The notes beneath the pieces were generated by a model, which saw only the letters and a list, made by a program, of their open reading frames with translations, had not been told where the DNA came from and made no database searches. A stretch of 64,000 bases of DNA from the NCBI GenBank assembly GCA_902802115.1, contig CADCKW010000004.1, forward strand, positions 49,805 through 113,804, in the 5' to 3' direction. The stretch comes from an uncultured Pseudomonadota bacterium. GTDB lineage: Bacteria; Pseudomonadota; Alphaproteobacteria; Rs-D84. Both the position numbers and the translations under genes were made by a program. Shown in pieces: positions 45,430 to 46,439 of the stretch. The first letter of the stretch is position 1; the number at the start of each line of letters is the position of its first letter.

Positions 45430-46178
45430 CTAATTGTCTTCGGGGGCTTCTATAATCGGGAACCAGTGTGGAACAATAACACCGTTTTCTTCGGTTTCAA
45501 CCAATAAACATTTTTTGCCGGCGGGACAAGCATCTTCCGGGCGGGTCTGCTTGTCCGCTTGCAAACTGTATACGCAGTTGTCGCGATTTTGATTTCGGGG
45601 ATATCTAATAATAATTGTTCCGCCTTGGCCGCTGTGCTGGGTTCGTTGCCCGCACCAAATATTTCGGTTAAATCAAAGACTGTCAAAAAACTGTTTTTAT
45701 CAACCGTAATGGTTTCACCCGCAATATACCCATTGCTGTCAGGTAATATTCCAAATTGAGAACCACCAATAGTCCAATTAGTTGTTGGTGTGATAATAGC
45801 AATACCTGTGCTCCACTCATTTGGAACATAATTGTTTAAATTCAAATTCCGATATGAACCATCTATTGAATAACGCAAATATGGTTTTTGTGTATAATTC
45901 GATTTTAATTTTAATTTCACAAAATATTTATGGTTGGCTGGGACAGTTTCCCCATTTGTGACATACAACCCTCTTTGAGAAGTGGTGGTAGTTGTTTTTA
46001 CGGTATATGTATTAAAATCTTCACCGGATTCTGTAAGTTCTAATAAACTTGGGGTTATAGTATATTTAATTGCCAATGGTGTATATTTCCACGCATATTG
46101 TGTATCTGCGACTGCGTGAAACAATGGCACAACCGCCATAAACATAAACAATAACCCCATCACAAACAATCGTTTCAT
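45430..46178 (-). CDS. Secreted tail-fibre-like protein disrupted by a -1 frameshift
   Basis: An exported protein with signal peptide (MKRLFVMGLLFMFMAVVPLF, then HAVA) and a beta-rich body containing FDLTEIFGAGNEPSTA, a motif familiar from phage tail and surface-adhesin proteins. In the uninterrupted frame the protein ends at 45450 with a Lys/Arg-rich tail that looks out of frame. In the -1 frame the same DNA reads NRDNCVYSLQADKQTRPEDA, CPAGKKCLLVETEENGVIVP and HWFPIIEAPEDN, ending at 45430. This is compositionally a normal C-terminus and matches the style of the other secreted proteins. The shift lies near an AAAA run at about 45585-45592. ATG 46178 has GGAGAG upstream, partly sequestered by the leader structure. 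Confidence 0.65.
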
Positions 46179-46403
46179 AATCAATCTCTCCAACCGATTT
46201 TTTCAACAAAAAAACCACCAAATTACATAGGCGGTTGGAGGTTCAAGACAATTTAAAACAGAAAATTGTGTGCTTATTTTACCGGTCGGGGTATTATTCG
46301 CAACCCTCCAACCAATTTTACGGTTGGAGTATTTCGTCCGCACAATAACGAACGCTGTTTTATTGGCAGGTCTTGACACCTCATCAATGGAACACCCACT
46401 GAC
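46179..46403 (-). promoter_or_regulatory. Structured leader with four complementary segments sequestering the Shine-Dalgarno
   Basis: In transcript order the leader contains CTCCAACC(G) at about 46329-46321, GGTTGGAG at 46314-46307, CTCCAACCG at 46239-46231, and CGGTTGGAG at 46196-46188, which includes the Shine-Dalgarno. Segments 1+2 and 3+4 can form two hairpins (SD closed), or 2+3 can pair (SD free), the logic of an attenuator or riboswitch expression platform. No known aptamer was recognised. Confidence 0.6.
46274..46384 (-). CDS. Possible 36-codon upstream ORF in the leader
   Basis: ATG at 46384, about 19 nt after the predicted transcription start, opens MRCQDLPIKQRSLLCGRN and continues to IIPRPVK before TAA. 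It spans the first hairpin (segments 1 and 2), so its translation would disrupt that hairpin. The Shine-Dalgarno is weak. Chance occurrence is quite possible. Confidence 0.3.
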   Translation of the reverse strand: MRCQDLPIKQRSLLCGRNTPTVKLVGGLRIIPRPVK

Positions 46404-46409
46404 GAAAAT

Positions 46410-46439
46410 ATTATATCACGATATAAATTTTTTATGCAA
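46410..46439 (-). promoter_or_regulatory. Promoter of the leader and frameshifted gene
   Basis: Minus strand TTGCAT (46439-46434), an 18-nt spacer and TATAAT (46415-46410). Confidence 0.6.

Follow-up and report, generated by a model that had tools for sequence, protein, structure and literature searches.

What kind of switch lies in the leader of a putative secreted-protein gene in a small bacterial genome, and from what was it built? We analysed a 64,000-nucleotide stretch of DNA from an uncultured alphaproteobacterium (hereafter the window), in which this leader occupies positions 46403-46208 of the minus strand, 5′ of the gene. An initial annotation had read four segments in it as a device that hides the Shine-Dalgarno (SD) sequence through pairings 1-2 and 3-4 or exposes it through pairing 2-3, possibly under the control of a leader peptide. 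Antisense RNAs of temperate phages silence antirepressor genes; the C4 antisense RNA of phages P1/P7 was reportedly described by Citron and Schuster in 1990. Judging from sequence comparison, we consider it probable that the leader is kin to the phage C4/sRNA-Xcc1 antisense RNAs, domesticated and rebuilt as a transcription attenuator. The conserved fold, exclusive helices, private guides, terminator, link to the downstream gene and kinship with sRNA-Xcc1 were each computed directly; that termination is the regulated step, in which direction it works and what sets it off are inferences.

All four segments are present on the minus strand (Table 1), with the start codon at 46178 and with segment 3 repeating the letters of segment 1. 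The leader folds at -76.2 kcal/mol, compared with -55.5 ± 4.6 kcal/mol for shuffled sequences (z -4.5). Since the fold beats the shuffles and some 100 homologues retain segments 1, 2 and 3, the segments are not the product of chance. They are parts of a larger element, which includes a second pairing system that had gone unnoticed (TCAAGA with TCTTGA, and AAAACAG with CTGTTTT). The initial annotation had also overlooked the terminator and the existence of many further copies. A transcription start downstream of segment 3 had been named in advance as evidence against the switch; the predicted -10 box lies upstream of all segments. A -10-like box (at least 5 of 6 matches) was found in 117 of 135 homologues at a median of 94 nt 5′ of segment 2, as a raw count without shuffle control. 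Promoter and signal-peptide calls follow simple rules throughout, and the start site, termination and read-through are predictions.

Table 1. Predicted features of the leader and its gene, in 5′ to 3′ order along the minus strand.
Feature	Position	Strand	Basis or remark
Predicted promoter, TTGCAT-N18-TATAAT	46410-46439	-	directly upstream of leader; -10 at 46415-46410
P0, 5′ hairpin GTCAGTGGGTGTTCCATTGATG	46382-46403	-	minimum free energy fold; covarying in six own-genome copies
P1a hairpin, loop carries a1 (TCAAGA, 46376-46371)	46367-46382	-	89% paired; 4/4 pairs with double changes
b1 (AAAACAG), partner b′ at 46261-46255	46355-46361	-	guide versus 5′ site above swapped partners
P3 hairpin, CGTTCG...CGGACG	46335-46354	-	96% paired; 5/5 pairs with double changes
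Segment 1, CTCCAACCG (anti-antiterminator), forms P4 with segment 2	46321-46329	-	98.4% paired, 96 copies
Segment 2, GGTTGGAG at 46313-46306, partner 1 or 3; C4/sRNA-Xcc1-like core begins here	46305-46313	-	conservation of helix 2-3; RF02221 match
P5 hairpin, TTGCGAATAA...AATAAGCA	46271-46303	-	100% paired; UA to GC covariation, either way
P6 hairpin, loop b′ (CTGTTTT, 46261-46255)	46248-46269	-	98.7% paired; UA to AU covariation, either way
a′ (TCTTGA), partner a1	46243-46248	-	100% paired; double changes at all six pairs
Segment 3, CTCCAACCG at 46240-46232, partner segment 2 or terminator start	46232-46241	-	helix 2-3 and terminator overlap
Intrinsic terminator, AACCGCC-N10-GGTGGTT-TTTTT	46208-46236	-	runs on from segment 3
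Segment 4, CGGTTGGAG(AG) / Shine-Dalgarno CGGTTGGAGAG	46186-46196	-	only window gene and three own-genome paralogues
Regulated gene, putative secreted protein	45450-46178	-	N-terminal signal-like sequence; no Pfam or PHROG match

Fold statistics were taken from 96 structurally aligned copies in draft genomes. In these, 97.3% of cells were paired, as against 82.5% after shuffling and 41–47% when partners were slid, and double-sided changes occurred at 24 of the 29 pairs. The long-range helix a1:a′ was paired in 100% of the copies, with double changes at all six positions, in an alignment fitted to a model that already held this helix. Alignment-free tests agree with it: 7 of 7 pairs formed in 111 of 136 copies, compared with 160 of 1360 swapped controls, and complementarity between the guide and the 5′ site scored 19.1 against 14.8 for swapped partners (p 2e-11). 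Shuffle controls leave relatedness among copies in place, and swapped-partner controls remove it in part.

Helix 1-2 was 98.4% paired across the 96 copies, and helix 2-3, which is absent from the alignment model, was 99.6% paired, with double changes at three pairs. Because segment 2 is common to both, the two helices are mutually exclusive. In one homologue (L161) all three segments have changed jointly with pairing kept (CTCCTGC/GGCAGGAG/CTCCTGCC), and another (L030) shows three-way compensation too. The conservation of segment 2 is partly imposed, as many copies were fetched by a pattern that fixes it; copies from blastn or the covariance model carry no such constraint. Complementarity in homologues, whose loss had been named beforehand as the other possible refutation, is kept, as is the exclusive choice between 1-2 and 2-3. 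Covariance-model matches on the antisense strand, at the window and at L079, were discarded as palindrome artefacts.

An intrinsic terminator follows segment 3 in 116 of 133 homologues, compared with 7 of 665 shuffled sequences. Its 5′ arm takes 3–4 nt of segment 3 in 110 of these 116, so that it competes with helix 2-3; in a few copies (for example L005) the terminator barely overlaps segment 3. The terminator and the antiterminator helix exclude one another, as in a transcription attenuator. In folds computed without pseudoknots, the ground state lies at -69.2 kcal/mol and the state with 2-3 forced at -53.4 kcal/mol, about 16 kcal/mol apart. The lowest-energy state combines a1:a′, b1:b′, 1-2 and the terminator. 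Given the cost of forcing 2-3, we propose that termination is the default, and since the read-through state is far less stable in these pseudoknot-free folds, an active shift to read-through would be needed.

In the proposed mechanism, the transcript would first present a two-part address, of which a1 lies in a hairpin loop and b1 follows it; segment 1 would come next, and then a C4-like core made up of segment 2, P5, P6 (with b′ in its loop), a′ and segment 3. This core would pair with the address on its own transcript. With a1:a′, b1:b′ and 1-2 formed, as in the ground state, segment 3 would be free, allowing the terminator to fold and transcription to stop after about 195 nt. Were 1-2 opened, 2-3 would close the C4-like core and take 3–4 nt of the terminator stem, whose disruption would let polymerase read into the surface-protein gene. 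With its own guide in each copy, each leader would answer to its own address. The candidate triggers are guesses, the best being either a cut close to where segment 2 begins, of the kind that RNase P makes in the C4 precursor, or a competing RNA on a1b1. In C4, RNase P cleaves the precursor where the 5′ side of the closing stem begins; in the window, segment 2 has GGU as its first letters, resembling the GGW site reported for C4 (PMC5320573).

The only useful Rfam match for the leader is sRNA-Xcc1 (RF02221), which covers its 3′ half (46313-46225, minus strand) at 30.8 bits, below the 53-bit cut-off; the closing stem, which is the 2-3 helix, encloses P5 and P6. Matches to this family were found in 87 of 142 genomes of the order (three above the curated cut-off, up to 57.8 bits) and in none of 14 control genomes. 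We next examined what flanks strong sRNA-Xcc1 loci in Pseudomonadota. In these true loci the a1 hairpin and b1 are found again upstream, beyond the reach of Rfam's 87-nt model, and the address sequences are repeated (a2b2) at the next gene's SD. When compared with swapped partners, their guides are complementary to both the upstream site (p 1.5e-7) and the next-gene SD (p 1.6e-5), whereas in the window type the upstream address is significant and the 3′ side is not (p 0.90). The gene that follows sRNA-Xcc1 is often one for a phage antirepressor or SymE: Bro-N, KilA-N, P22_AR_N, Rha and SymE proteins are among those encoded there, and 'ant' takes this place in Escherichia phage Rac-SA53.

Because their a1b1 and a2b2 flanks match the order in phage P1, whose record (AF234172) annotates a1, b1, C4, a2, b2, then icd and ant, the sRNA-Xcc1 loci are C4-like in layout. 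A profile of the sRNA-Xcc1 spacer hairpin finds its top match in P1 exactly between b1 and C4 (E 8.6e-5 in 40 kb). The core sequence gave no match to P1 C4, and the window leader none to the C4 model RF01695 even at E≤10; in architecture, the leader has the upstream a1b1 complementary to two core segments. It is most likely a further derived form of the sRNA-Xcc1/C4 layout, and its lineage appears to have lost a2b2 and gained a terminator in their place. In L161 (2040-2245), a1b1, the terminator and an a2b2-like SD site are seen together by eye, resembling an intermediate; by the same inspection a2b2 is present in the alphaproteobacterial L161 and L223. Two loci of one alphaproteobacterial genome (L217 and L223, G690) are phage-type copies whose SD site precedes the genes of a small protein and a Bro-N-like protein. 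At another locus, L178, a c4-2 RNA (RF02944, 2890-2958, minus strand; 34.8 bits, below cut-off) lies about 1.3 kb from an sRNA-Xcc1 locus, so that two C4-type systems are neighbours there.

sRNA-Xcc1 came to light as an abundant RNA of 88 nt, mapped by RACE (PMC2996969); this length matches that of the Rfam core. Studies of Aeromonas salmonicida (15 copies) and Xylella have tied multi-copy sRNA-Xcc1 to virulence (PMC8780938, PMC12189769). The loci read here suggest that copies of this kind are instead prophage or mobile-element leaders. In the part of the sRNA-Xcc1 literature covered, the a1b1/a2b2 layout was found nowhere; the likeness to C4 may have been recognised earlier. A reading as integron attC sites, prompted by sRNA-Xcc1 cassettes, was set aside, as the copies precede diverse genes at a fixed distance.

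The leader belongs to a multi-copy family. The window genome (0.95 Mb) holds further copies by search and eight solid ones by covariance model, and two relatives of the same genus (G019 and G023) hold 41 each. At least 115 stretches matched in a pattern scan; almost all came from alphaproteobacterial MAGs, several of them named Candidatus Enterousia, a member of the genome-reduced gut order Rs-D84 (PMC12306168). As only 9 of 289 genomes in a class-wide sample carry the leader, its expansion is lineage-specific. In two genomes, leader copies follow one another in tandem at intervals of about 200 nt, in runs of up to four (G023:C24, C12, C22, C45 and C47; G041:C1:84093-84443). Three IMG/VR viral contigs (L041, L042 and L043) carry the leader with its terminator, and the two copies read among them stand upstream of secreted-protein-like or transporter-like genes; these contigs may be prophage or mis-binned host DNA. 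A blastn search of the leader against phage records gave no match.

Forty copies from one genome have 40 distinct guide pairs. In this genome, the own guide is the unique best match for 40 of 40 addresses, and the own address is likewise the unique best for 39 of 40 guides; the pairing scores are 18.4 for self and 8.0 for cross pairs. The privacy of the codes is a fact. No active avoidance of guide cross-talk was detected, cross-pairing within a genome being equal to that between genomes, and private guides could also come from drift of a purely structural helix.

The start codon lies 34–67 nt past segment 3 in 100 of 128 copies, which argues for control in cis. By a crude rule and against an uncurated background set, a signal-peptide-like start was found in 78% of downstream proteins of at least 100 aa, compared with 28% of background ORFs. 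A cis-acting switch before the gene of a putative secreted protein, as initially proposed, is supported. Putative surface proteins, pilin-like and glycine-rich as judged by inspection, lie downstream in other alphaproteobacterial families; Pfam gave no match for the two such proteins tested.

The window protein and those behind L002, L003 and L004 are four paralogues with a common signal-like N-terminus and differing middles, and at least the latter three share a C-terminal block. Together they would make up a mosaic surface-protein family behind near-identical leaders. The window gene misses about 35 codons present in L002/L003, and its C-terminal part is out of frame relative to the paralogues, the shared ending (QADKQTRPEDACPAGKK...) lying in an ORF at 45430-45564 (window 45430-45600, minus strand). 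It may be a decayed or mis-assembled copy.

Could the element be mainly an sRNA gene, whose terminated RNA of about 195 nt or processed C4-like core acts in trans while the downstream gene receives read-through? The predicted promoter and terminator bracket the window element, sRNA-Xcc1 was isolated as an abundant short RNA (PMC2996969), and action in trans, after processing from longer transcripts, is known or assumed for the C4 RNAs of P1/P7 and for their C4-like counterparts in Acinetobacter baumannii (PMC5320573). The fixed spacing to the start codon, the strong enrichment of signal-peptide-like proteins downstream and the retention in every copy of an address matching its own guide speak against this, and we regard it as unlikely. 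A small-molecule or ion riboswitch, in which the P5/P6 core (GAAUA...GAAUAAGC) binds a ligand that chooses 1-2 or 2-3, would suit a large, complex and strongly conserved fold with an expression platform. However, this core is common to the sRNA-Xcc1/C4-type antisense RNAs, the variable guides are the most covarying part, no Rfam riboswitch matched even at E≤10, and the downstream genes, which besides secreted proteins include small HTH proteins and a UvrD-type helicase, have no common metabolic theme; we judge this reading very improbable.

The translational switch of the initial annotation, with 3-4 pairing over the SD, is slightly less probable still. Its pairing scheme held in part: 1-2 and 2-3 exclude one another in homologues, but a segment 4 (SD = GGTTGGAG) was seen among the homologues only in the window gene and three paralogues from the same genome, so that closure of the SD is not a general feature, and a terminator follows segment 3 instead. 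Pairing 3-4 is absent from all other homologues, including the close relative L064 with its near-identical leader, and from the lowest-energy fold. The sRNA-Xcc1 relatives do cover the SD, in a different form, through pairing with the guide. Leader-peptide attenuation, in which ribosomes on an upstream ORF block segment 1 and thereby allow 2-3 to form, is the explanation to which we give least credence. The 36-codon frame (46384-46274) exists and covers segments 1-2 in the window, but shuffled sequences contain ORFs across segment 1 at least as often (0.86 in the leaders versus 0.94), and the frame starting in P1a is open in 47% of copies, and open through segment 2 in 32 of 78 NTG starts, no more than a neighbouring frame is. 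The proposal of control by a leader peptide was therefore not borne out.

If the preferred reading of a C4-type transcription attenuator is right, a phage lysogeny RNA has apparently been domesticated on a large scale, before about 40 genes in some genomes of about 0.8 Mb, mostly for secreted or surface proteins. Few leader-RNA regulons would then be denser per gene, and nature would have supplied a set of orthogonal RNA switches. We advance only tentatively, as less than an even chance, the further idea that repeated copying of a phage immunity RNA has produced a chromosome-wide set of as many as about 40 orthogonal, self-addressed switches, each with a bipartite code of its own, which turn surface and secreted proteins on or off one by one and give these genome-reduced gut bacteria an RNA-based means of surface variation. 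sRNA-Xcc1, so far discussed as a trans-acting virulence sRNA, in turn gains a reading as the C4-type leader of phage antirepressor and SymE genes.

Among known systems, the C4 antisense RNA of phages P1/P7 (Rfam RF01695; the c4-a1b1 motif of Weinberg et al. 2010, PMC2864571) likewise places a1, b1, a spacer and an antisense core with two guide segments on one transcript, with private guides. P1 C4 also has a2 and b2 at the SD, whereas the window leader has a terminator in their place, and C4 controls icd/ant where the leader would control a host surface-protein gene. sRNA-Xcc1, of which Rfam models the 3′ half only and which is described as a trans-acting, virulence-related sRNA, has the same closing stem (helix 2-3), P5, P6 and a′ in that order; the window leader differs in its 1-2 helix, its terminator and its score below cut-off. 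The Group 1 C4-like sRNAs of Acinetobacter baumannii, which are of the RF01695 type, share the many copies per genome and the variable guide loop, but are described as sRNAs and are not known to act as leaders (PMC5320573); unlike them, window-type copies stand at a fixed distance before genes, with a terminator competing with the core. Classical trp-type attenuators have the same order of exclusive helices (1-2, 2-3 and 3-terminator), from which the window leader differs in having no conserved leader peptide and in the addition of a bipartite self-address.
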